64,000 nucleotides of DNA, from assembly GCF_000507245.1 (NCBI RefSeq), contig NC_023035.1, positions 62,001-126,000 on the forward strand. Direction: 5' to 3'. Shown here piece by piece: positions 12,281 to 62,657 of the stretch. This DNA comes from Salinispira pacifica (GTDB lineage: Bacteria > Spirochaetota > Spirochaetia > DSM-27196 > Salinispiraceae). A program made the translations under genes and the position numbers. How positions within the stretch are numbered: position 1 is the first letter of the stretch; each line of letters starts with the position of its first letter. The notes under the pieces are model-generated. The model saw only the letters and a list, made by a program, of their open reading frames with translations. It had not been told where the DNA came from and did not search any database.

Positions 12281-12327
12281 AGAGGCTTCGCATTTTAGTT
12301 TGAAAACAGCAAATGGAGGCCCGAGCT

Positions 12328-13134
12328 ATGGGGATCTTTGACAGATTTAGACGGGTTGTAAAATCGAATCTCAACCAGATGATCAGTAAGGCCGAGGATC
12401 CTGAAAAGATGCTCAATCAGCTGATTGTGGATATGAATGAGCAATTGGTTGAATCCAAGAAGAGCGTAGCCAGTGCAATAGCCGATGAAAAGCGGCTGGA
12501 GCGTCAGGCAAATGAACACCGACGTAAATCCGAAGAGTGGGAAAAACGTGCGGTTTTAGCACTGAAGGCCGCAGACAAAGAACCTGAACGAAAAAGTCAT
12601 TATGAGGATCTGGCCAAAAAAGCGCTTGCCCAGAAAAAAGAATGCGATGTAACCGCTGAAAAATATAATGAACAGTACGAAGCCCAGCATGATTCGGTGG
12701 AAAAACTGAAGGGTGCATTGCAGGGGCTTCAGCAGCGCATTGAGGAAGCCCAGCGGAAAAAGAACCTGCTTATTGCCCGGGCCCGGAGAGCGGAAGCGCA
12801 AAAAAAGATTCAGGATCAGATATCCGGACTGAGCGATACTTCAGCCTTTGATGCCTTCGAGAAGATGGCCAGCAGGGTGGATCAGATTGAAGCCGAAGCA
12901 GACGCCATCGGGGAAATAGAAGGACCTGATTCCAGCAGTATTGAGAATGAATTTGCAAAACTGGAATCCGGCGGTTCCGACGATGCCATGCTGGAAGATC
13001 TTCGGAAAAAGATGGCTTTGGAGGATCAACGCCCGGGGAACGCATCCAAAAAAGGTGATTCATCCAAGGCTTCACCTGCAGATCCCGAGGTGGATTCCAT
13101 GATGGAAGAGCTGAAAAAGAAGCTGAATGAGTAA
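12328..13134 (+). CDS. PspA/IM30-family membrane-stress protein
   Basis: 268 residues, almost entirely coiled-coil helix. It begins MGIFDRFRRVVKSNLNQMI, the amphipathic membrane-binding helix of PspA/Vipp1 proteins, and continues with the family's EDPEKMLNQLI and long heptads. PspA/IM30 proteins are bacterial ESCRT-III-like polymers that stabilise stressed membranes. The C-terminal 50 residues are polar, then helical. ATG at 12328 is chosen because GGAGG lies eight bases upstream and the canonical MGIF start results. An ATG 15 bases earlier overlaps the Shine-Dalgarno. Transcription ends at the hairpin 30 bases downstream. Confidence 0.93.
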   Translation: MGIFDRFRRVVKSNLNQMISKAEDPEKMLNQLIVDMNEQLVESKKSVASAIADEKRLERQANEHRRKSEEWEKRAVLALKAADKEPERKSHYEDLAKKALAQKKECDVTAEKYNEQYEAQHDSVEKLKGALQGLQQRIEEAQRKKNLLIARARRAEAQKKIQDQISGLSDTSAFDAFEKMASRVDQIEAEADAIGEIEGPDSSSIENEFAKLESGGSDDAMLEDLRKKMALEDQRPGNASKKGDSSKASPADPEVDSMMEELKKKLNE

Positions 13135-13458: not shown

Positions 13459-13773
13459 TTATTCAACCAAAACGGCCGTTCCGTATACGAGAATCTCAGC
13501 CGCTCCCTGCATCATGGAGGTGGTGGAGAATTTTATGCCGATGACTGCATTGGCGCCTAATTCAGCTGCGCTGTCCATAAGACGGTCAAGACTCTGTTCT
13601 CTGGATTCGGCAAGCATTTTTGTATAATCAGCAATCTCTCCGCCCGCCATCATTTTAAAAACCGCAGCAATATCTCTTCCGATATTTCTTGCCCGGATCG
13701 TGTTGCCGTATACGAGTCCATAGTGCTTAATGATTTTTTTATCGGGGATTGAATCCGTTGTGGAGAGCATCAT
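13459..13773 (-). CDS. YbjQ (UPF0145) family protein
   Basis: 104 residues matching UPF0145/YbjQ in length and in its landmarks: KIIKHYGLVYGNTIRARNI, the SREQSLDRLMDSAAELGANAVIGI helix and the terminal VYGTAVLVE strand. Members form pentameric rings. Biochemical function is unsettled, although some annotations suggest metal binding. The start overlaps the stop of the preceding anti-sigma gene by four bases, so it is the third gene of a sigma/anti-sigma/ybjQ unit. Confidence 0.9.
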   Translation of the reverse strand: MMLSTTDSIPDKKIIKHYGLVYGNTIRARNIGRDIAAVFKMMAGGEIADYTKMLAESREQSLDRLMDSAAELGANAVIGIKFSTTSMMQGAAEILVYGTAVLVE

Positions 13774-14240
13774 CGTATAATATCCTTGTAGTTGCGGTCA
13801 TCCCGCATTTCTTTTCGTCTGCTTGCATAGGTATGAACTAAAAAGGAAACTACAGTTCCTCCCAGGGAGATTACGGCGCCGATGCGAACCCAATGCGGTA
13901 TTCCGCGATCCATGAGCGCAAACCCTCCCATAATCAAAGAGCTTATAATGTATACTACAGCAAATATTGTTCCCAGTACCAGAGCCCGCTTGTAGCGGGG
14001 TTTTTTCTCAAATTCCTCATACCATTCCCGCCTGAGTTCAAGCTTCGGAAGTTTGCTCAGTTCCCGTTTCAGTCTGAGCAGTCTGATATATTCATCCCTC
14101 AGTCTGTGGTTATTCTCGATTTCCGCTATGACGGTATCTATTTCATCTCCGGGAATTTCATTATCCACCAGGGCCTGAACCCTCATGAGCAATTCCCGGT
14201 CATGGTCTGACAGTGAAGGGGTGGTGTTTTTACTTGTCAT
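13770..14240 (-). CDS. Probable membrane anti-sigma factor
   Basis: 156 residues. A cytoplasmic N-terminal helical part (about 1-85, HDRELLMRVQALVDNEIP...LLRLKRELSKLP) is followed by two membrane segments (about 88-110 and 120-142) and a short basic tail. The gene overlaps the ECF sigma gene stop by four bases, the usual place for a cognate anti-sigma factor. The helical VQALVDNE-type start recalls the anti-sigma domain, but the HxxxCxxC zinc motif of ZAS proteins is absent. Function is therefore inferred from position and topology. Confidence 0.7.
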   Translation of the reverse strand: MTSKNTTPSLSDHDRELLMRVQALVDNEIPGDEIDTVIAEIENNHRLRDEYIRLLRLKRELSKLPKLELRREWYEEFEKKPRYKRALVLGTIFAVVYIISSLIMGGFALMDRGIPHWVRIGAVISLGGTVVSFLVHTYASRRKEMRDDRNYKDIIR

Positions 14241-14737
14241 TCCTGACTCTCCAATGCAGCCTGAAGCTGCTTTCGGGCATAATACAGACGGGACATAACC
14301 GTTCCCCGGGGAATGGATAGTATCTCGCTGATTTCGTTATAGGAGCACTCCTGAAAATGCTTTAATTCAATAATCTGCCGATGTTCCGGTGACAGCTCTT
14401 CCAGTGCTTTGTACAGGGATCTGATCTCCTCTCTCTTGATGGCACTGAGTTCTGGATTACTGCTGTGTATTTCCGGGATATCAAGCGGCACTTCTGCGCT
14501 GCTTTCCCGGCTGTTTCGTCTGCTGAGAAAGTTCCGGGCCAGATTTCGACCTATGGTCAGCAGCCAGGGATAAAACGGACGGCTGCTGTCATATCGGGAA
14601 ATATTTGTGTACGCCCGCATCACCGCCTCCTGAATAATATCCTCCGCATCTGTGGCATTCCGTACCATGGACAGGATGCTTCTGTATAACCTGGGGATGT
14701 AGGGAGTGATAAAGCTGTTGAATTCCTGCTGATTCAG
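14237..14737 (-). CDS. ECF RNA polymerase sigma factor (probable CTG start)
   Basis: A sigma-70 family group 4 factor. Region 2 has DAEDIIQEAVMRAYTNI and the FYPWLLTIGRNLARNFLSR helix for -10 recognition. Region 4 has LSPEHRQIIELKHF and the SYNEISEILSIPRGTVMSRL helix-turn-helix. The first ATG (14668) would give only 143 residues and cut into region 2.1. The frame stays open upstream to a TAA and contains no ATG, GTG or TTG there. A CTG at 14737 has AGGAG six bases upstream and restores LNQQEFNSFITPYIPRLYRS, the expected N-terminal helix (166 residues). It heads the anti-sigma and ybjQ genes. Confidence 0.88.
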   Translation of the reverse strand: MNQQEFNSFITPYIPRLYRSILSMVRNATDAEDIIQEAVMRAYTNISRYDSSRPFYPWLLTIGRNLARNFLSRRNSRESSAEVPLDIPEIHSSNPELSAIKREEIRSLYKALEELSPEHRQIIELKHFQECSYNEISEILSIPRGTVMSRLYYARKQLQAALESQE

Positions 14738-39319: not shown

Positions 39320-40675
39320 TTACAACCGGTGCTTCACGGCTTCTCGCCCTATCATCCGGCGCCGCATCCGGCGATTGTTTCTGGAGGCGTCCCGGGTGGG
39401 GGCGACTATCCGGCCGTACCCCAGTTCCCCGGCTTGCTGAATCCTTCTGCGAAGATGACTGATGCTTCTCACCTGTCCGGATAAGCTGATTTCCCCGCAA
39501 AAGGCCGTTGCCGCCGGCAGGGGCATACCGGTTCTGGCTGAGTAGAGGGCCATGGCCAGCCCGAGTTCGGTGCCTACATCCTGAATGCGGATACCGCCTG
39601 CAACATTTACGTACACGTCCTGGTCGGAAAACCTGAGGTTTGCATGCTTTTCAAGTACTGCGGCAACACGGTTCACTCTGCGCTGATCTATCATATCCGA
39701 GTATACTCTGCCGAAACCGCCCTTCCCGGGGACGGTTAATGCCTGAATCTCCACCATAAGAATTCTGCTTCCTTCATACACAGGGACAATGGCGGTTCCT
39801 GCCGGCAGCTCTTCAGCTTCACTGAGAAAAAGGCGGCCGGGATCACCCACTTCCTGCAGCCCCTGGGCATCCATTGTGAAAATACCGATCTCGTCACTGG
39901 AGCCGAAGCGGTTCTTGCTCGCCCGGAGGAACCTGAGTTCGCCCTGGGAGTGATCAAAGTAAAGTACCGCATCCACCAGATGCTCAACCAGTTTGGGGCC
40001 TGCAATGGCTCCTTCCTTGGTAACATGGGCGATAAAAAATACGCAGGCATTTACTTCCCGGGCTGCCTCGCTGATAATCTGTACCGAATGCTTTACCTGA
40101 TTCGGGCTGCCCGGGGAAGACGAGGATTCTTCGGTGCCCAGAGTCTGTATGGAGTCTACGATTACCACTCCGGGCCGGTGGGAATGAATCGCCTGACTGC
40201 ATAATTCCGCCGATGATTCCGAAAGAAGGCTGATACGGTCGCCTTGAATACCCAGTCTGGAAGCCCGCATTTTAATTTGAGACTGGGCCTCTTCCCCTGA
40301 GATGTAGAGAACTGATCCGCCCCGGGAATATGCACCGGCAGCCTGGAGCATGAGGGTTGATTTGCCGATTCCCGGTTCTCCCCCCAAAAGAACGGATGAA
40401 CCGCCCATTACGCCTCCTCCCAGAACACGGTCCAGCTCACTCATTCCCGATGAGATTCGTCTTCCCTCACCGCTTTCCACATCCGAGAGTTTTACCGGTG
40501 CCGGAGCGGCGGTTTTCCCTCCGCCCATGCTTCCTCCGCCGGATGTCTGACTCCGGGGCGGCTGTTTCTCAACAAAACTGTTCCATTCACCGCAGGAAGT
40601 GCAGCGACCGCTCCATTTTGGTTCGCGATGTCCGCAGCTGCTGCATTCGAAATATTTGACTGCCTTTTTTGCCAT
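39320..40675 (-). CDS. radA: DNA repair protein RadA
   Basis: 451 residues. It has an N-terminal zinc finger (CSSCGHREPKWSGRCTSC), a RecA-like ATPase with Walker A GGEPGIGKST, the RadA-specific KNRFG motif (ASKNRFGSSDEIG) and a C-terminal Lon-like domain (YVNVAGGIRIQDVGTELGLA). RadA drives branch migration in recombination and repair. Divergent from the cyclase gene across 51 bases. Confidence 0.96.
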   Translation of the reverse strand: MAKKAVKYFECSSCGHREPKWSGRCTSCGEWNSFVEKQPPRSQTSGGGSMGGGKTAAPAPVKLSDVESGEGRRISSGMSELDRVLGGGVMGGSSVLLGGEPGIGKSTLMLQAAGAYSRGGSVLYISGEEAQSQIKMRASRLGIQGDRISLLSESSAELCSQAIHSHRPGVVIVDSIQTLGTEESSSSPGSPNQVKHSVQIISEAAREVNACVFFIAHVTKEGAIAGPKLVEHLVDAVLYFDHSQGELRFLRASKNRFGSSDEIGIFTMDAQGLQEVGDPGRLFLSEAEELPAGTAIVPVYEGSRILMVEIQALTVPGKGGFGRVYSDMIDQRRVNRVAAVLEKHANLRFSDQDVYVNVAGGIRIQDVGTELGLAMALYSARTGMPLPAATAFCGEISLSGQVRSISHLRRRIQQAGELGYGRIVAPTRDASRNNRRMRRRMIGREAVKHRL

Positions 40676-40726
40676 ATCTGCCGCCTTTGGTTGACTAAGC
40701 CTTGATCAATACTTACCATCTTTTGT

Positions 40727-43021
40727 ATGAACCCGAAAGAGTACCGTCTTGCAGCCATCATGTTTACCGACATTGTCGGATTCAGCAGGATGATGGAGAA
40801 GAACGAAAAAGAAACCCTTGAACTCCTTGAGTATCATAATGAGATTGTCAGGAAACATACAGAAGATCTCCGTGGTTCCATAATAAAGACCATCGGCGAT
40901 GCGTTCCTGATTGACTTTCCCAATACCGTTAACGCGGTAAATTGCGCTATCCGCATTCAGCAGGATCTTGAAACACGGAACAGGGAAAATCCCGACTTCA
41001 CCATTATCCTCAGGATCGGTGTCCACCTTGGGGATATATATTTCTATGAAAACGATGCCCTGGGCGAAGGTATCAACATTGCAAGCCGTCTTCAAAGTAT
41101 TTGTAACCCCGGGCGTATCTGTATTTCCCAGGATGTTTTTAATCTGGTGAACAACAAAATCGATGAAATTCCCATAAAAGAGCTTGGGGCGGTAAAGCTG
41201 AAAAATATCAGCAGAGAGATCCGAGCCTATGAAATCGCAACCAATGGAGATGCCCGTCCCAAGTCCGAAACCGGCAAAGATGCAGCCTCCCAGGGGACCG
41301 GAGCAGGCGAAACCGGTGCACCGGAGCAGGCAGTGTCACAAGCAGGGGAAGAGCATCCCCGAAAACCCGCTGCTTTCAGAGAGAACGCTCCGGCGGAAAC
41401 GCCTTCCATAGGTGAAAAAGAGGTGAAAGACCTGGTGATGGCCCAGATTAAACAGGCGGGCAGAAGACTCACCGTGGACGAGGTGCGTACAAACCTGGGC
41501 TACAGTGGCAGAAAAATTGATGACATGCTGGACTCCATGGTACGGAAAGGTTTTCTGGCTAAATCAACAGGCTCACAGCCTGCGTCTCCGGGAAACCGAC
41601 CGGGATCAGCAGCCGGCAGCGGAACTTCACCCTACGAATCCCCCGATCCCAGTGAGTTCCCCTATAATCTTCGAAGAGCTGCGGGAGAATTCGGACGGGC
41701 CGGCAGAGAAATGGCCCATGAACTCGGCCGGGAATTTGAGCGGGGCCGCGGACGGAGCCGTCAGGAGCCTATGGGTCGGGAATATCCCGATTCCTCCTAC
41801 GGGAGGCGTCATGGTGTGGTGATCCCTGAAGGCAGGGGCTCAAGTGAAGATGAAAAACGTGACCGGGAACTTGAACAGGCCTGGGACCGGGTGTTGGATA
41901 CTCCATATGACAGCTGGCAGGATCAGCAGCTGATACAGGAATACCGAGCCCAGACCAACAAGAGTCTGAAAAAAATGGAATCGGAATTCCGCGGCCACCT
42001 GGGATCCTATCTTTCGGTGAACGGAGGGCTCATCGCTATCTGGGCGTTCACCGGGGCCGCATTTCCCTGGTTCTTTTTTCCCGCGGGAGGGTGGGGAATC
42101 GGTCTTCTGACCCACTGGAGCGGTCTGCGAAGGAAGCGTCAGGAAGCCAGGGAGCTTCAGGCTCTTCCTGCTTTGAACAAGCAGCAGCTGAAAAAGCTGA
42201 GGAAGCTCCACCGAAACCGGAACAAATTCGGCGGACATCTTATGTCCACCCTTGCAACGTCCCTGTTTCTGGCCGGGATAAATATTATCACCAGTCCCAT
42301 GGTGCCATGGTCTCTGATTCCCATTGCCGCCATGTCAATCGGTGTGTTCAGTCATCTTCCTGCAGCCAAACACAGGGAGAAGGAAACCCTGGAGGAACTG
42401 GCTGCGCTGAATGTGCCCGTCTCCCAGCTGAAAAACGCGAAACGGCTTAAACTCAGTCATGAAAGTCAGATTGCCACCAGTTTTCAAAGTCCCATGGAAG
42501 CGGAGGCCGAGAATCTGAAAGCTGCCGTCCTGGCTCAGATTTCCGGGATGAAAGACCGGAGTCATCTGGGAGAGGATTTTGAACAGGTTCTGGAAGGATA
42601 TGTAAGCCAGGTGGTTGAGCTCAGCCGCAAGGATCAGGAGATAAATAAGACCCTGGAAGCCATACCCATGACCAATCTGGAGGGTGAACTGCTTGATCTG
42701 CAGAAACAGCATGAGGCAACCGGCAATCCCGATCTGAAGGTTGAACTTGAAAAGTCCATAGAATCAGTAAAGAAACAGCAGAACTCCTATTATGAACTGG
42801 AGAAGCAGCAACAGATGCTGAAGGCGAAACTCAGCAGTGCCATAAACTCTCTGCGTCAGCTCCAGCTGGACTTGGTACGTATGAGACGTACCCCCGAACT
42901 TCAGGAGCTGCCTCCGGTTGATGCCCTTCGGAATCAGACAGGGGAGATCAACCACTATCTGAGTGATCTTGAGCGGGAGTATCGAATGCTTGAGGAAAAG
43001 GAAAAGGAGCTGAACGGCTGA
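40727..43021 (+). CDS. Class III nucleotide cyclase fused to winged helix, two 2TM modules and coiled coil
   Basis: 764 residues. Residues 1-170 form a class III cyclase domain: AAIMFTDIVGFSRMM with the first metal Asp, TIGDAFLIDF with the second, GVHLGDIYFYENDALGEGIN and ASRLQS. A proline/alanine-rich linker leads to a winged-helix-like segment near 225-280 (RRLTVDEVRTNLGYSGRKID). Two 2TM-type membrane pairs follow (about 425-465 and 505-540), each after a basic helix and resembling PF13239. The last 200 residues are coiled coil. The canonical substrate-specifying Lys and Asp are not clear to me, so cAMP or cGMP output is undecided. The 3' end overlaps the pseudopilin gene by 74 bases. Confidence 0.85.
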   Translation: MNPKEYRLAAIMFTDIVGFSRMMEKNEKETLELLEYHNEIVRKHTEDLRGSIIKTIGDAFLIDFPNTVNAVNCAIRIQQDLETRNRENPDFTIILRIGVHLGDIYFYENDALGEGINIASRLQSICNPGRICISQDVFNLVNNKIDEIPIKELGAVKLKNISREIRAYEIATNGDARPKSETGKDAASQGTGAGETGAPEQAVSQAGEEHPRKPAAFRENAPAETPSIGEKEVKDLVMAQIKQAGRRLTVDEVRTNLGYSGRKIDDMLDSMVRKGFLAKSTGSQPASPGNRPGSAAGSGTSPYESPDPSEFPYNLRRAAGEFGRAGREMAHELGREFERGRGRSRQEPMGREYPDSSYGRRHGVVIPEGRGSSEDEKRDRELEQAWDRVLDTPYDSWQDQQLIQEYRAQTNKSLKKMESEFRGHLGSYLSVNGGLIAIWAFTGAAFPWFFFPAGGWGIGLLTHWSGLRRKRQEARELQALPALNKQQLKKLRKLHRNRNKFGGHLMSTLATSLFLAGINIITSPMVPWSLIPIAAMSIGVFSHLPAAKHREKETLEELAALNVPVSQLKNAKRLKLSHESQIATSFQSPMEAEAENLKAAVLAQISGMKDRSHLGEDFEQVLEGYVSQVVELSRKDQEINKTLEAIPMTNLEGELLDLQKQHEATGNPDLKVELEKSIESVKKQQNSYYELEKQQQMLKAKLSSAINSLRQLQLDLVRMRRTPELQELPPVDALRNQTGEINHYLSDLEREYRMLEEKEKELNG

Positions 43022-43202
43022 CGGAGCGCTTCTCTTCATGCCGGAGCTGTTTCAGCCTCTGCTCCGCTTCTATGAGCTGATTCAGAAGCTCCGCAGCAGT
43101 GCCTAAAATCAGGGTGAATATCAGCAGCAGTACCAGGGCTTCCAGCAGGGCAAATCCTGAATTGCAATCGCCGCCTGTTCTCGGTTTTCCTGTTATTCCC
43201 AT
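42948..43202 (-). CDS. Pseudopilin-like protein, last gene of secretion operon
   Basis: 84 residues with a type IV prepilin N terminus: a short leader ending in Gly, then FALLEALVLLLIFTLILG with the Glu at +5 expected for assembly. The helix continues as LLNQLIEAEQRLKQLRHEE and then a polar tail. Minor pseudopilins GspI or GspH are longer, so this may be a reduced form. The start overlaps gspG by ten bases. The last 74 bases lie antisense over the cyclase gene, so the tail sequence is constrained by two genes. Confidence 0.65.
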   Translation of the reverse strand: MGITGKPRTGGDCNSGFALLEALVLLLIFTLILGTAAELLNQLIEAEQRLKQLRHEEKRSVSRSAPFPFPQAFDTPAQDHSDSG

Positions 43203-43642
43203 GACAAAATATCCGTATTTTCGCCCTCTCCCCCCTCTTTGCCGTCGGCACCGGTGCAGATAATGATAAAGGGCAGATTGTAGCGATTCGCTCTGCGGTA
43301 AATGAACTCATGGCCCCAGGGGTCCTCCCCCGGCTTTCTTTCAAGATAGGGTCCTGACCAGGATTCGGGTACCGGGTAGAGATAAGGCTTTTCCCAGAGC
43401 GCATCCAGCCCCTGTTCATCACTGGGGTACGTCCCGCAGTCAAAATGGTATTTACTCAAGGCCAGTCTGTAGGTCTCGATCTGATTTCGTGCGCTCACTC
43501 TTCGTGCGGAGTGGATAAAACCCCTGGAACTGACGCTGATTCCACCGCCGAGTATCAGCATGATCGCCAGTACGACGATCAGTTCGATGTAGCTGAATCC
43601 CCTCTGATATTCGGGGTTCCGCATAACTGATATGTGTTTCAC
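43193..43642 (-). CDS. gspG: Type II secretion major pseudopilin GspG
   Basis: 149 residues. The leader ends QRG-FSYIELIVVLAIMLIL, matching the prepilin peptidase site with Glu+5. The globular part has the GspG pattern IETYRLALSKYHFDCGTYP(S/T)xxQGL, WEKPYLYPVPESWSGPYLE and DPWGHEFIYR, and the terminal acidic loop of the calcium-binding type (GADGKEGGEGENTDI). GspG subunits form the periplasmic pseudopilus piston. The GTG start at 43642 is supported by AAAGGAGG seven bases upstream. Confidence 0.92.
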   Translation of the reverse strand: MKHISVMRNPEYQRGFSYIELIVVLAIMLILGGGISVSSRGFIHSARRVSARNQIETYRLALSKYHFDCGTYPSDEQGLDALWEKPYLYPVPESWSGPYLERKPGEDPWGHEFIYRRANRYNLPFIIICTGADGKEGGEGENTDILSWE

Positions 43643-43675
43643 CGGGAAACCTCCTTTAGATCATTCGTTACCGGT

Positions 43676-44374
43676 TTATTGTGCCTGGAGAATCCGGTCG
43701 ACAGCTGCCTTGAACGCACTCAGTTCATCACAGGAAACTTCCACCGAAGACGCCCACAGCTGAGCCTGTTGGTAATTTTCTGAGCCCAGCTGAAGCAGGG
43801 CGAGAAAATAGCGTTCCCTGGGAGAGAGCCGGTAATGGGGCGCGAACCGAGGGATCGCCGGAGCATCCTGCGGGTTTTCGGCAGGGGACAGATCTCCCTG
43901 TTCTTCCTCCTGCCTGTAGAGCCGGCGCACCCGATCGCTGATCCGTTCAAGTGTAATGAACACCGCACTGCAGTCTGTACTACCGGGATTGGGAATCATT
44001 TCCGGATGATCGACGAAATCCGGGTGTCGGATCAGAATCTTGAGCTTCGGTCCCGCCGATGCACCCGGAAGCTCTCCCCTTCCGTAACAGTCGCTTCGGC
44101 CGATCACAGTACTGCGGCGCTCTGTGATCAGGATGATTTCCGCATCGGTTACCGGATTGTGCCGTTCATCGCTGATTCTTATGCAGACGGTTCCAATCGA
44201 ACCGTTTCCTACGGTTGTACAGCCCCCGATAATCAGAAGCAGTGCGGGTATTGCAACCCAGCAGATATGCAGCAGGCTGGAAAAGGAGTCTTTTTCTGTA
44301 CAAACCATGCCCCTGTCATGGTGATAGGCACCGGCCTGCCGACTTGCAGTAATTTTTTCATTCTGTCGCTTCAT
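43676..44374 (-). CDS. Lipoprotein in the secretion operon
   Basis: 232 residues. About 38 polar residues precede the hydrophobic segment VAIPALLLIIGGC, whose C is a plausible lipobox cysteine, though such a long n-region is unusual for a lipoprotein. The mature part has a beta-sandwich-like start (IGTVCIRISDERHNPVTDAEIILITE, which resembles a carboxypeptidase-regulatory or Ig-like fold) and a C-terminal helical pair YFLALLQLGSENYQQAQLWA, as in TPR units. ATG at 44374 has GGGAGG five bases upstream. Position between the assembly protein and gspG suggests a pilotin-like or secretin-associated role (inference). Confidence 0.6.
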   Translation of the reverse strand: MKRQNEKITASRQAGAYHHDRGMVCTEKDSFSSLLHICWVAIPALLLIIGGCTTVGNGSIGTVCIRISDERHNPVTDAEIILITERRSTVIGRSDCYGRGELPGASAGPKLKILIRHPDFVDHPEMIPNPGSTDCSAVFITLERISDRVRRLYRQEEEQGDLSPAENPQDAPAIPRFAPHYRLSPRERYFLALLQLGSENYQQAQLWASSVEVSCDELSAFKAAVDRILQAQ

Positions 44375-44406
44375 CACAACCTCCCGTGTGTATCTGCCGG
44401 TCCGAT

Positions 44407-46293
44407 TCAGTTTCCGACCGGCTGCCGAACGATCGGATTCCATGACCGGAGATGCGATTTTGGAATGTCTCGGGGGCATTCCCATTCCTTGTACCGTTCT
44501 CCCGGAGCCAGAATTACGGGGCTGGATGTTCTCCCGTCGGTAAAGACCATGAAGGTTCCCAGGGAATCCCGTATAACTCCGTTGAATTCCAGATGCTCAG
44601 GCAAAGGGGACGGGGTGGCGGATGCAGGGGATTTTTCCTGTGGATTTTCCCGGGGATTCGAAGTGGACGGCAATTCTGCGCTGTAAGCCGACGGGACGGT
44701 TTGCGGTTCCGGCAGCAGACAGCTGTGTAAAATATCATGAAGACGCTCAGGTCCTCCCCTCTCACCGGTCAACGGGGTTTCGGGAACCTCCGGGGGGTAG
44801 TGAACTCTCCGAAAAAATGTACTGCTTTTCCCCAACTCCCCGATATACGCATTCAGAGCATCCTCAAAACGGATAGCCATGGCGATCTCTATACCCCGGT
44901 TTTCCGAATCCAGGTTTGCTGGATTCTGGTATGCTGGACCCACGGTTGCCGGAGCTGATGAAATACCGGTGAGTGACAACGAATCAAATGGAACAGATAC
45001 TGCGTCCAGGCCGGCCAGAAGCCTCAGTCCATGGAAATCCTGATCCGGTGGTATTCGGATTCTGACAGTATTATTATCCGGGTCGAAGCCGAATTCTCCA
45101 TACCTGCTGAAACCCCTGAGCCAACGGAACACCCGGGCAGAAAGCTGGTTTTGCCGGACATTGTATTGTTCCCCCGGGATGCTGACGCCCGGAACAGTCA
45201 GATGATCCGGCAGCGAGGTACGAAGAGTGATATCTTCCCTGCTGCTGAAATATCCGTGAACGGCAGCCTGGAGAAACAGCCGACTTTCATGCCGTGGAAT
45301 GGAATCGCCGGTCCAGGCCGTGTCCCCGACCAGTCCCATCCCCGGCTGAGAATCGCCAAACACAAGCTGAGCTTTTGCCTCACCGCCATTAATTTCCAAC
45401 GAATTCAGTCGGATGTCACCAAAGGATGTTTGAAGATCGTCAAGAAGGAATTCCAGAGAATCGAGAGCCGAAAAGCGGAGATGGGAACCTGATGAGCTTC
45501 CCGCTGCCGAAGAATGCCGGGAAGGCAGAGTGGTTGCCGTTCCCGCCGTATTTCCCTCACCGGGACTCTGAAAAAATCTGGGCAGAAGAAAAACGGCAGT
45601 AAGGACCAGTGCACAGAGGATCATGATCTGCACAGGAGCCGACGGTATATTTCTGCGAAGGGTCACGGCAAGGCGGCTGAGCTTACCGGGAAAGGTTCTG
45701 CCGCTGTAGGCCTTGAGAAGCTTTTCCACTGGAAGAGCAGCGTCGGTGCTCGGATTGGAACCAGGGGTGCCGCCAAGGGAAAGCTGAACGTTCTTCCAGG
45801 ATGCATAGGCTCTGGCAGCCATTCCCCGGGTGATGGTCAGCGCAGCCGCATTCGGCGGGGCTGTCTCTCCGGGAGGCGTTCTATTGCTCACGCTCAGAAT
45901 AAAATGAGGGAGATGATCGGCTTTGTTCCAGCTTTCTTTGCCGGCGCGACCGTAATTGAACTCGTGGGCTGTGAATGTCCCGTCATCTATGATCAGAGAT
46001 TCCCATGCCTTGCGACCAAGTACGCTGTAACGGCCGTCTTGAAATCCAGCTGCAAACATCATCAGTAGAATTCCCGGGAGGAGCTCATTTCTGCCGGCTG
46101 CCACCCCTGGCCTGCGTTCCCTGATGTAATGCCACAATTCATTTTTCCCCAGGTTCACGCCGAATGCCTGATCCGATTCGGTGAACCGGGGAAGGGTCTG
46201 GGTTCTATGGCCTTCTGCACATATATGGCTGATTGTTTCTCCCGGGAGAGAAAACCGGAGGTCCCGTTGAAAATTGCAGATGAATGTTTTCAT
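44407..46293 (-). CDS. Large bitopic assembly protein of secretion/pilus operon
   Basis: 628 residues with a single membrane segment at about 220-240. The first 215 residues are cytoplasmic and the rest periplasmic. This topology suits GspL (actin-like cytoplasmic domain plus periplasmic ferredoxin-like domain). The last 60 residues (FNGVIRDSLGTFMVFTDGRTSSPVI) resemble the small beta domain of PilP/GspC that contacts the secretin. The region between has two alpha/beta units like PilN/PilO. It may fuse functions usually split among GspC, GspL and GspM; this is inference. It starts immediately after the gspF stop. Confidence 0.6.
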   Translation of the reverse strand: MKTFICNFQRDLRFSLPGETISHICAEGHRTQTLPRFTESDQAFGVNLGKNELWHYIRERRPGVAAGRNELLPGILLMMFAAGFQDGRYSVLGRKAWESLIIDDGTFTAHEFNYGRAGKESWNKADHLPHFILSVSNRTPPGETAPPNAAALTITRGMAARAYASWKNVQLSLGGTPGSNPSTDAALPVEKLLKAYSGRTFPGKLSRLAVTLRRNIPSAPVQIMILCALVLTAVFLLPRFFQSPGEGNTAGTATTLPSRHSSAAGSSSGSHLRFSALDSLEFLLDDLQTSFGDIRLNSLEINGGEAKAQLVFGDSQPGMGLVGDTAWTGDSIPRHESRLFLQAAVHGYFSSREDITLRTSLPDHLTVPGVSIPGEQYNVRQNQLSARVFRWLRGFSRYGEFGFDPDNNTVRIRIPPDQDFHGLRLLAGLDAVSVPFDSLSLTGISSAPATVGPAYQNPANLDSENRGIEIAMAIRFEDALNAYIGELGKSSTFFRRVHYPPEVPETPLTGERGGPERLHDILHSCLLPEPQTVPSAYSAELPSTSNPRENPQEKSPASATPSPLPEHLEFNGVIRDSLGTFMVFTDGRTSSPVILAPGERYKEWECPRDIPKSHLRSWNPIVRQPVGN

Positions 46294-47310
46294 TTATAGT
46301 CCTCCGGTGATTTCCAGAATCCGTCCGTGATATGAGGAGATGATTCTGCTGCTCAGCAGGAGTACCGAAATACCCGCCAGGGAGATTGCAAGGGGCTGGA
46401 GTACAGAGCATGCCCGGGCAATGTTTTGTTGAAGCCGGATGCTGAGGAGGTTCCAGCTGTTTCGAATTATCTCCGGCGAATCCTGTCCGGAGATAATTGA
46501 ACGGCACATGCTGTGTAATTCATGAAAATTTCTCAGAGCACCGGTTTCAGCAATCCTGCTTGGGAGCCGGTTCCAGTCCCCGGATATCCTGGCATCTGCA
46601 CATGCCGATAGAACTCCCGCTTCCGGTAGTCCTCTCAACAGCCGGGCCATTTCCTCCAGCTGATCCTGCAAAGGAACCCCGGCCGTCTTTCCGACGGACA
46701 GCTGTGCGCAGATGCGAACCCAGCTGCTGAGCTGCTGCAGATGGAGTAAAAAGGGAATCCTGTCCAGAACAGTTCTGATCCAAAAGGGCTTATCCGGCAT
46801 ACAGGCAAATCTGAGCCCGGCGGCCCATAACAGCAGAGATTCGGTGATCAGAATTGGAAAGATGATGTTCAACCAATCTGCGGGACTGCCGGCCAATCCG
46901 CTCATTTTCCCCAGGGGTCCCAGGGAGTAGGCCAGGGCAAAAACCAGGGTGAGAAAAAGGACCCAGACCGGATATACCAGAGAGGAGGATAAACGCCGAT
47001 CCAGTTCAATCTCTTTATCCAGCTGCTTCTCAAGAACTGAGCATACCCGGACCACTGTGGTTCCGGAGTTCGCCTGTGAAAGCAGCTGCAGGGATGAATT
47101 TTCCGGGCAGTAACGTTCAAAGGTCTCCTGCCAGCCTGCACCGTCCTCCAGATCGGCGGTGATATCACGGAGAAATTCCTTCATCTGTTTTTCTCCGATT
47201 TCTCGGTGGATTCGGCACAGACTGTCTCGTAGCGTGTACCCATGCTCGAGATAAATTCTGAGACTTCGGCAGAAATCCCTGCTCACCTTTTTTCCCGGAC
47301 AGCTTTTCAT
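46294..47310 (-). CDS. gspF: Type II secretion inner-membrane protein GspF
   Basis: About 338 residues. It has two GspF/PilC-type helical domains: SLRIYLEHGYTLRDSLCRIH...LEDGAGWQETFERY and a second copy around CAQLSVGKTAGVPLQDQLEEM. Membrane helices are at about 115-135, 155-175 and 315-333. It forms the platform around the GspE ATPase. The native start is ATG 47310, which in the uninterrupted operon would overlap the gspE stop as ATGA. The inserted IS now lies 13 bases upstream. An in-frame ATG at 47322 gains AGGAGG from the IS end, so translation may continue. Confidence 0.85.
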   Translation of the reverse strand: MKSCPGKKVSRDFCRSLRIYLEHGYTLRDSLCRIHREIGEKQMKEFLRDITADLEDGAGWQETFERYCPENSSLQLLSQANSGTTVVRVCSVLEKQLDKEIELDRRLSSSLVYPVWVLFLTLVFALAYSLGPLGKMSGLAGSPADWLNIIFPILITESLLLWAAGLRFACMPDKPFWIRTVLDRIPFLLHLQQLSSWVRICAQLSVGKTAGVPLQDQLEEMARLLRGLPEAGVLSACADARISGDWNRLPSRIAETGALRNFHELHSMCRSIISGQDSPEIIRNSWNLLSIRLQQNIARACSVLQPLAISLAGISVLLLSSRIISSYHGRILEITGGL

Positions 47311-47323
47311 TGTACCGTACATA

Positions 47324-47341
47324 GGGCCTCCTGAAAAAACC
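47324..47341 (+). repeat. Left terminal inverted repeat of the IS
   Basis: Eighteen bases identical to the reverse complement of 48924-48941. Read towards gspF from the other end, the repeat contains AGGAGG, a full Shine-Dalgarno. Confidence 0.95.
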
Positions 47342-48813
47342 CTATGCTGCCATATTACCATACCCCAATACCACGGGGAAATGAGACTTCGTAATTTTTC
47401 GGCTGCGTAGCATAGCTATGATAAAGACGTAAAAAAGATCCTTCCGAATCTTTTCCAGGTTCATCACCAGCATGATCATGGCCACCTGCGATTCACTGGT
47501 CTCAGCAAGCTTTGTCATTAATCGACCCATTGAGTACCGTCGTTTTGCTCTGCCAAATGTCCCTTCGACAGCTATTCTATCCAGCTCATCCTGACGGGCC
47601 AGCTTCTTTCGTTCTCGATTTTCTCCACGATCTTTCGGTGGACGACCAAGCGGCGGACCGGATAATCTGATTCCCCGTTCCTTGCACCAATTCCGGTTGC
47701 CCCTGGTGCGGTAAATCTGATCGGCGTGTATTGATTCCGGATACACGCCATATCTGTGCCTGTACTTTTCAGCCTGCATGACTAAATCACCAGACTCGTT
47801 GTATGGATCCCATGAACAGCGATCGATGAACATGTACCCGTCAATATTGGCGGATGAAATCTTCATGCCGAACTCAACCGGGGTACCGGCTTTTCCCCTG
47901 ACGATGGGTCGAATATGGGGTTGGGAGATACTCACAATCCGGCCCGATATTCGATGATCTTTGGATTCATACATCAGTGCCTGCTGGCGAAAGACTTCCG
48001 AGATAACCAACAGATTCCGGTACTGCTGCCGAGACAGGCTATTCAAGCCGACTACCGTCGCTAATTGCTCTATATGCCGGAGATTACGGCGTATGTACCC
48101 CAGCTGCTTGCGTATTGCTTTGCGAATCTTGTTCTTGCTTGCTCTGCGCTTTTTGATGACCACTAAAAAATCCTTTCGCGCTTTCTGCCGGTAGGTTCGG
48201 GGTTTTGTCGCCCCCTTGGCCCGTTCTGCGTGAAGAACGTCTATGATGGTTTCCAGTTTTTCCCGGCTCTCGTTTAAAATCGAAAGATCGGTGGGATATC
48301 GAATATCACCGGGTACGCAGGTGGCATCAATCAGCAGCTTTCCGCTGTTTTCTACCTCAGAATTTTCTTCTTTTTCAGCTTCCGTATCATCTTCAGTTTT
48401 TTTTTACGTTCTTCGGCAATAATCAATTCATTTGCGTGAGTGATCATGTCCATGCTGATTCGCTTTCTGAAATGGACCATCATTGATGGATCAAAGGGAG
48501 CCTCATCCTGGTACCCCTGCATTCCGATGAGATATTGCAGGTAAGGCGTCTCACGAATCTGCTCCACGGTTTCCTCATCTGTAATTCCTAATTTTTCCTT
48601 TATAATCAGGGCACCCAATGCTGTACGGAAACGGATCGCCGGAGCGCCTTGCCCGCTTTCGATAGCAAACTGTGAGGCATATTCTGCTTCTAAATCCTCC
48701 CAGGGAATTAAATCAGCAAGCTGTACCCAGCGGTTATTGGGGTTCAGTTTGCCTCCAAATGGGAGATAGAAATCTTCAAATGAAAGCTGCGTTTTGTCCT
48801 CAGTTCTATACAT
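47342..48813 (-). CDS. IS transposase, two frames joined at an A9 tract
   Basis: The first frame runs from ATG 48813 (GGAGGG upstream) to a stop at 48352: QLSFEDFYLPFGGKLNP and FDPSMMVHFRKRI. The catalytic part is in the -1 frame: LLIDATCVPGDIRYPTDL with the first Asp, SIHADQIYRTRGN with the second and VEGTFGRAKRRYSMGRL with the third acid (DDE). The frames meet at nine A on the coding strand (48397-48405). A -1 shift or one extra A there gives an intact 490-residue transposase. This arrangement is usual for recoded IS enzymes, so the element may be active. Confidence 0.85.
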
Positions 48814-48930
48814 AATCCCTCCCGCCAAGAAAACAGGTGCAAGGGTTTTTGCCTGGTTTTCGCAAAAACCGTGCACTTCATGCACAAATTCTAGCAGTAT
48901 TTCATTTATATGTATAGGGTTAAGGTTTTT

Positions 48931-50436
48931 TCAGGAGGCCCTACATAATTCTTCTCCTGGCTGAATGGCTCCCGAACTACAGGAGGGAGGGATATGGAGA
49001 TTTTCCTCCAGTTCAACGGTTCCATCCTGATGATGGATCAGGCGCTGGCCGACCACGGCTTTGAGAACCTGCAGTCTGAACCGGTCTCTGATTCCCAGGC
49101 TCTTCAGTCTGTGGGATGCAGTCTCAGCAGAGGGTGCGTGTATGGTGCTCAGTACCAGGTGACCGCTCAATCCTGCATCAAGGGCAAGTTCAGCAGTGGT
49201 ACGGTCGCGAATCTCTCCGATTATCAATACATCAGGTTTACGGCGCAGGGCTGCCGGCAGGAACGCCGGGTAATCCAGTCCTGCCAGGCTGTTCGCTTCT
49301 ATCTGTTCCACACCCGGAAGAATTATTTCCACCGGTTCTTCTATGCTGATAACTTTCCTGCCCAGCTTAACCGCCTCACCGGCAAGGCCATACATACTGG
49401 TGGTTTTACCGCAGCCTGTGGGACCGGAGAAGAGGATCAGGCCATGGGATGAACTCAGGCTGTATCGGAAAAACCTGAGAGTTGTTTCGCTGAATCCCAG
49501 CTGTTCCGGAGACGGGAAGTCTTTTCCCGGATTCAGGATACGGATGCTGGCCGATGGTCCCTGCATGGTTGAGAGAACTGACAATCGCATTCGCACATTC
49601 CGGAGTCCTGTTTTCAAGGTAAAGGAGCCGTCCTGGGGTGCTCCGTGGGAAAAGATTTCCAGTGCGGCCAGTACGCGGAGGCTGTTAACAAGAATGGAAC
49701 ACATTTGAGGACTGATCTTCCGCATCACCTGCAATTCCCCGTGTACATTAACTCTGATTCCGGCTTCACCGGAATCATCCGTTCCCATGGCATGGCCGTT
49801 GGTGCACGGCTCCTGCGATCCGGGCTCAAAATGAATATCGGTGGCTTGTCGTTTTACTGCCTCCAGGAGAATCGACCGGAGCATCCGCTGTCCCGGCCCC
49901 TGACTCAAAGGACCGGTTTGGGCATGAAGCTGAGCATCTGCCCTGTTTCCTTCCCCGCCGCTCAGACGCGTCAGGTGTATTTCCACATCGATGTCCGAGC
50001 AGGGAAGAAACATCACCCTGGAGTTTTCCCGCCATCGGTGGTAATTGGTGAGAAAGCTCCGCGTCTTTTCCCTGCATCTGCCGCTCACCGCTATCCAGGC
50101 AATATTTTCCGAATCCTGCCGGGTTGTCCCGAGAAACAGTGCTCTCTGGGTTTCAATAAACTCCATTGAATACTGCTGCTCTCCGCCGGGCAGGGGATAA
50201 AAATCGGCAATTTCCCCAGTTGTTGCTCCGACTCTTTTATCATGTACGGGCGAGTGTTTAGCATCCCTCCTCTGAGCGGGTATCTCTTGGGCCGGCGCAC
50301 CGTGAGACGTCGCACTATGAGACGAGTTACCGTGAGCCGTCGCCCCGTGAGCCGCAGTCCGGCATGAAATTTCTGGAGTTTCATGGAACGGCTGCTCTGC
50401 TGCACATGAATGATCATAATGAGGAGAATTTCTCAT
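48931..50436 (-). CDS. gspE: Secretion ATPase GspE, C terminus altered by IS
   Basis: 501 residues. The N terminus is low-complexity and His/Ala-rich. The GspE/PilB core has ATDIHFEP (near 205), Walker A GPTGCGKTTSMY (near 340), the Asp box ISIEEPVEI, Walker B DVLIIGEIRDRTTAE and the His box LSTIHAPSA. The tetracysteine zinc motif of many GspE proteins is absent. The ATG overlaps the secretin stop. The last three codons and stop now come from the IS right end. Before insertion the frame would have ended a few residues later at a TGA overlapping the gspF ATG. This change is probably harmless. Confidence 0.9.
   Translation of the reverse strand: MRNSPHYDHSCAAEQPFHETPEISCRTAAHGATAHGNSSHSATSHGAPAQEIPAQRRDAKHSPVHDKRVGATTGEIADFYPLPGGEQQYSMEFIETQRALFLGTTRQDSENIAWIAVSGRCREKTRSFLTNYHRWRENSRVMFLPCSDIDVEIHLTRLSGGEGNRADAQLHAQTGPLSQGPGQRMLRSILLEAVKRQATDIHFEPGSQEPCTNGHAMGTDDSGEAGIRVNVHGELQVMRKISPQMCSILVNSLRVLAALEIFSHGAPQDGSFTLKTGLRNVRMRLSVLSTMQGPSASIRILNPGKDFPSPEQLGFSETTLRFFRYSLSSSHGLILFSGPTGCGKTTSMYGLAGEAVKLGRKVISIEEPVEIILPGVEQIEANSLAGLDYPAFLPAALRRKPDVLIIGEIRDRTTAELALDAGLSGHLVLSTIHAPSAETASHRLKSLGIRDRFRLQVLKAVVGQRLIHHQDGTVELEENLHIPPSCSSGAIQPGEELCRAS
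50299..50358. repeat. Four 15-base tandem repeats inside gspE
   Basis: Four imperfect units of 15 bases (starting 50299, 50314, 50329 and 50344) encode the pentapeptide series TAAHG, ATAHG, NSSHS, ATSHG in the N-terminal extension of GspE. Being a multiple of three, copy change would keep frame. Confidence 0.8.
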
Positions 50437-52630
50437 TTCTGCGGCTCCCGGAAGAAGCGGGAATGTAGGGCGGGGATTCCCGGAAGCCCGGCTTCCACTG
50501 AAGAGGGCCGGTTCCTGATTACCGGCCGGATGTAGAGAATAAATTCGCTGAGCTCCCTGCGGCGCTCTAGCGAACCCAGAGGCAGTATTCCGCCCCCGGA
50601 TCGGCCTTCCTCGCTGACCAGACTTCCGGCCACCCGGAGTACCTCCCCGGAACGGCAGCAGGCCCTGGTGCGGATTTTCCGCTGATTGGTGGGGGGCGGA
50701 TTTCCCGCACCGCTGTCCACACCCCGCCTGCTCAGTTCAACACTGATGTTCATATCCACATCAGCTGGGCGGAATTCTTTGAATGCTCAGCGGCCGAACC
50801 GAGAATTTCTCCGGTTATACTGATGGTCAGACCGCTGGTGATCTCCCGGGTTACGGCGGTTTCTCCGCTGCTGTCCCGGTAGCGGTAGGTTGAGGTGTTC
50901 TCCAGCCTTGCTTCCTGACGGGAAATGCCTGCAATCATGCTGTCGGCCACGATGCGGGCGGATGAGCGGCTGAGATCCGCTTCCAGCTTCAGGGCAAAAC
51001 TGTAACCCAGGGTGGTGAGTACATCGAAATTCAGGCCTACAACTCTGCCCAGATCGGAAGAAACTGAGTGCCTGCTCTGTTCCGTAAGGGTTTCTCCTCC
51101 CAGCGAAGCACTGTATGCCCGGCGTTTGCTTTTCTGTACCTGCAGAGCCAGAATATGATATTCAAGTGCAGGCCGGGGCTGATCTTCCCGGCGAACCCAG
51201 TCCCTGAACTCCCGGGCGAATCGGGGTGTCCCTTTGAACCGGATGGTTCCCGGCGTACTTCCCCGGATAATCCCGCCGGAGGCAAACTCAGCGGGAATAT
51301 GTTCCATAATCTCTTCGGCATTACGGTGTCGGAGATGGATTGTGTGAAACACCGGTGGAATATCCAGGGTATGCAGATATTCCTTAAGCTCTTCATGATT
51401 CTCCGGGTCAAGAAGTGCATACACCCCATTCCCCGTCGGACCGGCGGTGAACAGTGCGTCTCCCAGGGCCGGGGGGAGTACACTCTTCAGTTCCCCAAGA
51501 CTGATGAAATCAAGGTGAATGCGCTCAGGTTCGATTCCGTATGAAGAATCCAGCTGTGCAAGAAAATCTGCAATACGAATGCTCTGCTCTTTGTTTCCCC
51601 GGATAATCAGGGTTGCGCCGTTCTCCCGGGGCTCTATGCTGCAGCCTGCGGCAAGTGAAGGGGGAATGCAGTTTTTCAGATACTCCATGCTCCGGTTTCG
51701 GGGAGTATAGGAACTGATGCACAGGGTTTCCTGCTGAATGGCGGGGTATTCCTGTTTGCCGGGATCGGGAAAAACCGAAAAAACCCCCTGGTGTTCAATG
51801 CACCGCAGCCCTCCCTGGACGGAAAGAAACTCCAGGGCTTCATGGAAGCTGCGGCTGCGGATATCCATTGCGGAAACCTGGTGTGTTCCCTGGGTGAAAA
51901 ACCGGTATTCAGCTTCCTGCAGGCGGAACAGCTTTTCCAGGGCGGTCCTTGCCGACCCGCCGTCTCCCCAAACACGGTAGATTCGGGGATTTTTCCCGGT
52001 AATTTCCACATTGAGCTCGGGGAGGGAGTGCCCTGAGCGGGAGTCCCTGAGTCCATTGCGGATAACATACGCTCCTGCCCGTTTCTCCAGCCGGTATTCG
52101 GGGTAGGGGAGGAGAAGGGTTGCAAGAGTATCTGCCAGGCTCCGGTTCTCACAATGAAGGGTCTGAGGCTCTGCGGGCAGGGAGCTGTGTCTGATTGCAA
52201 TTCCGCAGAGTTCGCTCAGGCGGTTCAGAATGCTTTCCATGGGAACATCCACTGCATGAGTGGTGAACAGTTCCCTGTCATCCGAAATATCTATTCGCAT
52301 TCGGGAAGCTATCCAGATGTTTCCTTTCTCGTGGAGATACAGGCTGTTTGCACTGAGTATCTCGGATAAAACCTGATCCAGCCGGATATCCCGGAAATAA
52401 TAGCTTCTCAGTTCATCCAGTCCCGGATCGGGCAGCAGAGGGATATTGCCGAAGCGGGCAAGGGACAGAAGAATTTCCCCGAGAGGTCTGCTGATAAATT
52501 CCATTTCTCTGATGACGGTCTCATTGGGAGGAAGGTTTTCTCCGAAGGTCTGCTGCTGAAGGGCCGTACAACTGAGCAGCACTGTGCAAAGCAGGATCCG
52601 GAGCATGGGGAATGGGGGGCGTATATCCAT
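50433..52630 (-). pseudogene. gspD: Secretin GspD, frameshifted near C terminus
   Basis: The first frame (52630 to 50750) holds a signal peptide, an N0-like STN region (MEFISRPLGEILLSLARFGNIPLL), repeated N-type modules (SRSFHEALEFLSVQGGL, RNAEEIMEHIPAEFA) and most of the secretin domain. It ends soon after EITSGLTISITGEIL. The missing end continues in the next frame to 50433: ADVDMNISVELSRRG and SGEVLRVAGSLVSEEG...SEFILYIRP. One extra A at 50778-50780 would restore a 732-residue secretin. GGAG precedes the ATG. It is the first gene of the operon, and the true C-terminal stop overlaps gspE. Confidence 0.78.
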
Positions 52631-61367: not shown

Positions 61368-62657
61368 ATGCAGACACAAGGAAATCGTAAAATCTGGTAC
61401 AGCCTCTACGGCAGGATGCTCGAGAGACCACGGCTGGAGGCCGCTTTCAGGAAGGTGAAGGCAGCGAACGGAGCCCCCGGAGTAGACGGAGTGAGCGTCA
61501 AAGCCTTTGCCGACCGTCTGGCGGAGCAACTCGATGTACTTGTGAAGGAATTGAAGGACAAGAGCTACCGACCGCTTCCAGTCTTGAGGGTGGAAATACC
61601 CAAAGACGGGGGAGGAGTAAGGAAACTCGGGATACCTTCGGTTCGCGACCGGGTAGTCCAGCAAGCCTTACTGGACATTCTAAACCCAATATTTGACCCG
61701 GACTTTCATCCGTCCAGTTACGGATACCGACCGGGCAGAAGCGCACATCAGGCAATTGATAAGGCATCTACGTTCATGCGCAGGTATGAATTGGAATGGG
61801 TAGTGGATATGGACTTGTCGAAGTGTTTTGACACACTGAAGCATGACTTTTTACTGACTCAAGTACGAAAACGAGTTGCCGATGGAAGCCTCTTGAATCT
61901 CATACGCCTCTTTCTTGAAAGTGGTGTGATGACGGATGCTGGTGAAGAGAACACTGAAGAAGGGAGTCCCCAGGGCGGGGTGATTAGTCCGCTTCTCGCG
62001 AACATCTACCTCGACTTCTTTGACCAGTGGAGCATGGCACGAGGGTATCGCATAGTTCGCTATGCCGACGATATCCTCATCTTTGCTTCATCACAAAAAG
62101 GTGCGGAACGTCGGCTTGCAGCTGCAACGCATTTTCTGGAAGAAGAAATGGGACTGGCTGTGAATCGTGAGAAAACTCACATTACAAACCTGTATAAGGG
62201 GGTGCGCTACCTTGGAGTAGTAATCTCTCGTCACCACACCCGGATTCAGGAAAAGAAGGTGAAAGCCTTCAAGGACAAGGTCAGGAAACTGACCCGACGC
62301 AACAGCGGGAGACCGCTGGGATCGACAATTTACGAACTCAATCCAGTACTACGCGGGTTTGCTAACTATTTCAGGATAGCAAATTGTACGAAGGTATTCA
62401 GGGAGCTGATGAGCTGGGTACGCAGGCGATTGCGGGCTATTCAGTTGCGACTTTGGAAACGCTCTTCCCGGCTGCACCGCCGATTGCGGCAGCTGGGATT
62501 TCAAGGCGAATTCAAACACATCAAGATGAGTTCGTGGAGATCGGCTAAAAGTCCGCTTGCAGCCATGGCGCTGCAAAACAAGCACTTTGAAGAGATGAAT
62601 CTGTTTTCTCTCGACAAGGTACAGGTCGCAATTTCTGTCCGGCAGCTTGCTGGATAA
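61368..62657 (+). CDS. ltrA: Group II intron reverse transcriptase/maturase
   Basis: 429 residues. RT blocks are in order: GAPGVDGVSV, VEIPKDGGGVRKLGIPSV, SSYGYRPGRSAHQAI, WVVDMDLSKCFDTL, EGSPQGGVISPLLANIYL and the catalytic VRYADDILIF. Then NREKTHITNLYKGVRYLGVV and a basic domain X (RGFANYFRIA...SWVRRRLRAIQLRLW) used for splicing. No C-terminal HNH endonuclease is present. The protein binds its intron RNA, aids splicing and copies it into DNA. All catalytic residues seem intact. Confidence 0.93.
   Translation: MQTQGNRKIWYSLYGRMLERPRLEAAFRKVKAANGAPGVDGVSVKAFADRLAEQLDVLVKELKDKSYRPLPVLRVEIPKDGGGVRKLGIPSVRDRVVQQALLDILNPIFDPDFHPSSYGYRPGRSAHQAIDKASTFMRRYELEWVVDMDLSKCFDTLKHDFLLTQVRKRVADGSLLNLIRLFLESGVMTDAGEENTEEGSPQGGVISPLLANIYLDFFDQWSMARGYRIVRYADDILIFASSQKGAERRLAAATHFLEEEMGLAVNREKTHITNLYKGVRYLGVVISRHHTRIQEKKVKAFKDKVRKLTRRNSGRPLGSTIYELNPVLRGFANYFRIANCTKVFRELMSWVRRRLRAIQLRLWKRSSRLHRRLRQLGFQGEFKHIKMSSWRSAKSPLAAMALQNKHFEEMNLFSLDKVQVAISVRQLAG

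Follow-up and report, generated by a model that had tools for sequence, protein, structure and literature searches.

A spirochaete protein family with an N-terminal class III cyclase on a tandem 2TM and helical scaffold, in which the cyclase has repeatedly decayed or been lost

The gene at positions 40727..43021 (+) of the analysed window (a 64,000-nucleotide stretch of the Salinispira pacifica genome, NC_023035.1, positions 62,001 to 126,000) codes for a protein of 764 aa in which a class III cyclase homology domain is followed by a tri-helical HTH-like domain, two 2TM hairpins and a C-terminal helical region. This order is conserved across the class Spirochaetia and therefore belongs to a lineage family rather than to a one-off, and in several lineages of the family the cyclase has decayed or disappeared while the membrane part was kept. 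We read the S. pacifica protein, with a probability of roughly 55%, as an inner-membrane class III adenylyl cyclase mounted on a 2TM-2TM-helical scaffold that would control the assembly of the cyclase dimer. As far as our literature searches go (they were made without most subscription journals), neither the order nor its conservation nor the decay series has been described, while each of the domains is known by itself. No relevant paper came up in searches on PF13239, on 2TM with cyclase and winged helix, or on cyclase with winged helix, coiled coil and spirochetes.

The open reading frame, located where the first-pass annotation had placed it, runs from an ATG at 40727 to a stop at 43021 (764 codons), and the start call is supported by the orthologues, which share the start residue (M-D-x-K-D-Y-R-L). 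The full protein was modelled with AlphaFold from a 13-member alignment of the family; with a pTM of 0.36, the model does not predict how the domains are placed relative to one another. The cyclase domain (residues 5-172, 40739..41242 (+), delimited by Pfam, the PDB fold match and the residue table) is modelled confidently (pLDDT about 90) and matches Guanylate_cyc (PF00211) over residues 3-166 with 58.7 bits against a cut-off of 21.9, bearing out the N-terminal cyclase that had been proposed from the sequence. In a fold search with the whole model, which tested the cyclase part only, the best PDB match was 3mr7 of Silicibacter pomeroyi (Z 26.2, rmsd 1.9 over 170 residues). All six catalytic residues are kept, i.e., the metal-binding D15 and D58, the base-selecting K54 and D110 and the transition-state N117 and R121. 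A K-D base-selecting pair is typical of ATP-using class III enzymes. With the six residues in place the S. pacifica copy is expected to be active and of the ATP type, and the gene product is probably a cAMP-making adenylyl cyclase. A guanylyl cyclase, or a cyclase using another nucleotide, on the same 2TM-helical scaffold seems very improbable to us: the canonical residue pair is not always decisive for base choice in class III enzymes, but K54 and D110 are invariant across the catalytically intact members of the family, and the nearest structures belong either to bacterial adenylyl cyclases or to enzymes with an adenylate/guanylate cyclase annotation.

The N-terminal position of the enzyme is less exceptional than first thought. 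The first-pass annotation held that class III cyclases are usually C-terminal, which is too strong, since the same genome has a second family with an N-terminal cyclase (see below), and other class III enzymes are known with an N-terminal cyclase joined to TPR, AAA or HTH domains. The S. pacifica protein resembles such N-terminal cyclases (3mr7 being the closest structure) in catalytic fold, catalytic residues and placement, but adds to them the HTH-like domain, the two 2TM hairpins and the C-terminal helices, and we have found no description of a fusion of all these parts.

Between the cyclase and the membrane part lies a small domain flanked by two linkers with pLDDT mostly below 50. The first linker (residues 173-229, 41243..41413 (+)) is flexible and poorly conserved, with pLDDT below 50 at 175-227 and a mean identity of 0.17; the second (residues 282-385, 41570..41881 (+)), also of low conservation, has mostly low pLDDT. 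The domain itself (residues 230-281, 41414..41569 (+), defined by the models, the PDB matches and the charge of its third helix) forms three helices in the full model (pLDDT about 84). Modelled alone it gives helices H7-21, H27-34 and H39-51 (mean pLDDT 78) with a tri-helical HTH core. This much of the winged helix proposed earlier has stood; as for the wing, both models contain isolated bridge residues only and no strand of three or more, with no clear two-strand wing. The best Pfam winged-helix score is below the curated threshold (TrmB, 14.3 bits against 25.6, residues 247-283).

These features bear on the possibility that the protein is a membrane-tethered one-component transcription regulator, in which the winged helix would bind DNA near the membrane and the cyclase would be a second output. 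Along these lines, the predicted tri-helical core finds its best PDB matches mostly among wHTH domains (Zalpha, MarR, ArsR-type, DtxR, FtsK gamma), albeit with Z of at most 5.3, and three of 37 family members match MarR_2 at E up to 0.01. The third helix is the DNA reader in winged-helix domains, and here its net charge averages -1.4 over 31 members, of which most have an acidic helix and only two a positive one, the S. pacifica protein (+1) being one of the two. The domain is, moreover, missing from one cyclase-bearing subgroup (L091, L092 and L104). Spirochaetota show an enrichment of membrane-bound transcription regulators (PMC10269533), which speaks for a regulator of this kind, and the S. 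pacifica protein shares with the transmembrane regulators of that study an HTH-like domain and TM segments in one chain, but it differs from them by its cyclase and in that DNA binding is unsupported. Taken together, the lack of a clear wing, the acidic third helix, the sub-threshold Pfam score and the absence from one subgroup make DNA binding unlikely and the one-component regulator an improbable reading. Of the DNA- or protein-binding module that had been suggested, the DNA version is thus the doubtful one; the domain appears to be degenerate, and a protein-interaction surface is more likely than a DNA reader.

The two 2TM modules announced for the membrane part are both found. PF13239 (2TM) matches two stretches at 68 bits against a cut-off of 24.8, and by Pfam and hydropathy the first hairpin covers residues 421-470 (41987..42136 (+)) and the second residues 501-547 (42227..42367 (+)); the model shows helical hairpins at 396-442/450-479 and 485-522/530-560. 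Membrane insertion is predicted, from hydropathy and charge only. The hydropathy peaks of the hairpins are 1.56 and 1.57, no charged residue occurs in the hairpin turns or membrane segments, and the stretch 467-500 has 13 K/R against 2 D/E. According to the positive-inside rule, the strongly basic loop that joins the hairpins (residues 471-500, 42137..42226 (+)) is predicted to be cytoplasmic, and the cyclase and the C-terminal helices with it, from which we infer an N-in/C-in topology in the inner membrane. Tethering to the membrane is in this way supported, as a prediction. The C-terminal region (residues 589-763, 42491..43015 (+)), kept in all family members, had been described as a long coiled coil; it is helical indeed, but as a series of helices (589-606, 618-645, 648-664, 668-720 and 731-763), the longest of which has 53 residues (668-720). 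We know of no established function for PF13239.

Contrary to the initial impression of an architecture with no known parallel, the order characterizes a conserved Spirochaetota family. Full-length homologues with 45-51% identity are present in all four genomes of the host family, and a cyclase plus the 2TM-helix module in one frame was found in seven further genomes of the order (G006, G012, G022, G039, G040, G043 and G044). With the same domain order recurring in many more genomes of the class, a chance origin of the arrangement is excluded. The module profile was matched in 35 of the 393 phylum genomes sampled, mostly of the same class, some of the weakest matches covering the 2TM part only; many of the 35 genomes have the cyclase as well, and one locus (L100) belongs to another Spirochaetota class. 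The named relatives are Spirochaetaceae, Spirochaetales or Spirochaetes metagenome-assembled genomes. They were retrieved with the module alignment as query, a contig search with the single protein having given no match. The plasmid collection contained no match to the module. Outside Spirochaetota the search consisted of one single pattern, and a wider spread of the full order is possible.

A conserved locus allows the fate of the cyclase to be followed among these relatives. The S. pacifica gene diverges from radA (39320..40675 (-), TIGR00416 at 452 bits), a housekeeping gene, with 51 bp (40676-40726) between the start codons. No clear Shine-Dalgarno sequence precedes the ATG of the cyclase gene. 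The block TPR / DHH / TraB / radA / cyclase-scaffold gene recurs in relatives with the cyclase (L060, L061), with a decayed cyclase (L066) and without any (L068, L070, L072), while in part of the order (L062, L063, L073) radA is absent from the flank examined. We take radA as a neighbour only and claim no functional link with the cyclase gene. The cyclase-free genes start close to radA, and thus the cyclase is truly gone there. Contig truncation as the cause of its absence was rejected, as there is no room for the domain when the gene starts within ~110 bp of the divergent radA start; this argument covers L067, L068, L070, L071 and L072, with L047, L048 and L102 outside it.

The 2TM and C-terminal helical module is present in every member of the family and the cyclase is not; nine relatives on the module tree are without it. 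Among the 31 aligned cyclase-bearing members, 23 (S. pacifica included) keep the six catalytic residues and eight do not. The changes are N117 to S, T, G or V, R121 to Q, N or G, and D58 to G; two of the decayed cyclases are wrecked, and several decayed ones have lost N117 or R121 and retain the residues that bind metal and base. On the module tree the label "intact" needs seven changes, at least five of them forced by well-supported branches. The cyclases tested (the two wrecked ones were left out of the cyclase tree) cluster together in 95% of bootstrap trees, for which the most likely explanation is a single fusion that was then undone several times. A late gain of the cyclase by some members was ruled out on account of this single group and of the cyclase-free members at the radA locus. 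That the enzyme decayed or went in several lineages while the membrane part stayed points to the latter as the probable core of the protein.

The same pattern could be taken to mean that the protein is mainly a structural or envelope scaffold, even in S. pacifica, with a minor or nucleotide-binding role for the cyclase and catalytic output beside the point. The retention of the scaffold at the radA locus after repeated loss or decay of the cyclase would fit, and so would the decayed cyclases in which the metal and base residues persist, as if nucleotide binding had outlived catalysis. Against it stand the 23 members that keep all six residues, S. pacifica among them, in which the cyclase is far better conserved than any other part of the protein. 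Among intact members the mean pairwise identity is 0.65 for the cyclase, 0.38 for the 2TM part and 0.37 for the C-terminal region; where the residues are broken the corresponding values are 0.36, 0.42 and 0.40, and the contrast between intact and broken members persists at matched divergence (0.59 vs 0.30 in the lowest bin). Since the cyclase is the best conserved part only where its catalytic residues are intact, catalysis is under selection where it is kept, and we consider a mainly structural protein unlikely in S. pacifica. The reversal in the broken members is the mark of relaxed selection after catalytic loss, the decayed domains evolving faster.

For the cyclase on a membrane scaffold, our preferred reading, a mechanism can be outlined. 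The two hairpins and the C-terminal helices would constitute a conserved core scaffold, with both ends of the protein and the basic loop in the cytoplasm. This scaffold most likely detects either membrane state or a partner docked on its helices, and it would form oligomers. Oligomerisation would bring two cyclase domains together at the inner face of the membrane, so that the active dimer is made or broken, and the active dimer would convert ATP to cAMP for some of the cNMP-binding proteins of the cell. The two long flexible linkers point to control by tethering and local concentration rather than through a rigid signalling helix, and the HTH-like domain would more likely serve protein interaction than the reading of DNA. 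Genome-wide there are 14 matches to cyclase domains and 13 to cNMP-binding domains; effectors would thus exist, none being tied to the cyclase-scaffold protein. The lineages that have kept the scaffold with a decayed cyclase or none make it probable that the scaffold has a role independent of catalysis. The family offers a natural series on one membrane scaffold and at one locus (intact cyclase, catalytic residues lost, no cyclase), which opens a way to study the role of the orphan 2TM domain and the coupling of cyclase activity to a membrane module without HAMP, PAS or another known sensor. To our knowledge, cAMP signalling in free-living spirochaetes has been little studied.

Parts of the scaffold are found with other enzymes in other phyla. 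The C-terminal helices, taken without the 2TM part, match the Gemmatimonadota sequences L079 (34.5 bits, shuffles reaching at most 5) and L078 (38.7 bits), and profile-profile comparison of the spirochaete and Gemmatimonadota helices gives a probability of 98%. L079 (3771-5762(+)) begins with a Ser/Thr kinase, followed by a 2TM-like segment that is weak in Pfam (13.6 bits) and then by these homologous helices. A Ser/Thr kinase in Anaerolineae (L074) and a histidine kinase in Bacteroidota (L075) are each followed by a 2TM domain without the C-terminal helices. In these three loci, from which the kinase version is judged, the catalytic domain is N-terminal to the 2TM hairpin as in the S. pacifica protein, which differs from them in having a cyclase for its enzyme, two hairpins in tandem and an HTH-like domain. 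We regard it as an even bet that the 2TM and C-terminal helices are a cross-phylum platform with exchangeable enzymes (a cyclase in Spirochaetota, a Ser/Thr kinase in Gemmatimonadota) and a core function independent of catalysis; for the latter, the argument is the repeated pseudo-cyclase decay and complete loss with the platform staying at the radA locus.

The second N-terminal-cyclase family of the S. pacifica genome, here called family B, is likewise conserved (G000:C1:792095-793639, i.e., L013:1501-3045 +, and also L049-L054) and has an N-terminal cyclase followed by a single TM hairpin, with an HTH-like domain at the C-terminus. The cyclases of family B are sister to those described above, and both families combine an N-terminal cyclase, a membrane hairpin and an HTH-like domain, but in family B the domain order is another one, the single hairpin has no PF13239 match and there is no C-terminal helical region.

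Elsewhere in the window, a PspA/IM30 gene lies at 12313-13134(+) (PF04012, 180.6 bits), and on the opposite strand near it an ORF at 14237-14668 resembles, by eye, an ECF sigma factor, of which the ORF at 13770-14240 may, also by eye, be the membrane anti-sigma partner. A link of the cyclase gene with the PspA system was dropped, as PspA is about 27 kb away and a survey of PSP systems (PMC11237479) mentions no cyclase. The stretch 43193-52630(-) holds genes for type II secretion, namely T2SSG, a Secretin_N protein and, identified by eye, a GspF-like protein; an IS transposase ORF (DDE_Tnp_1_2, 47342-48163) lies between them, and a group II intron reverse transcriptase/maturase ORF (RVT_1, GIIM) is located at 61368-62657(+).
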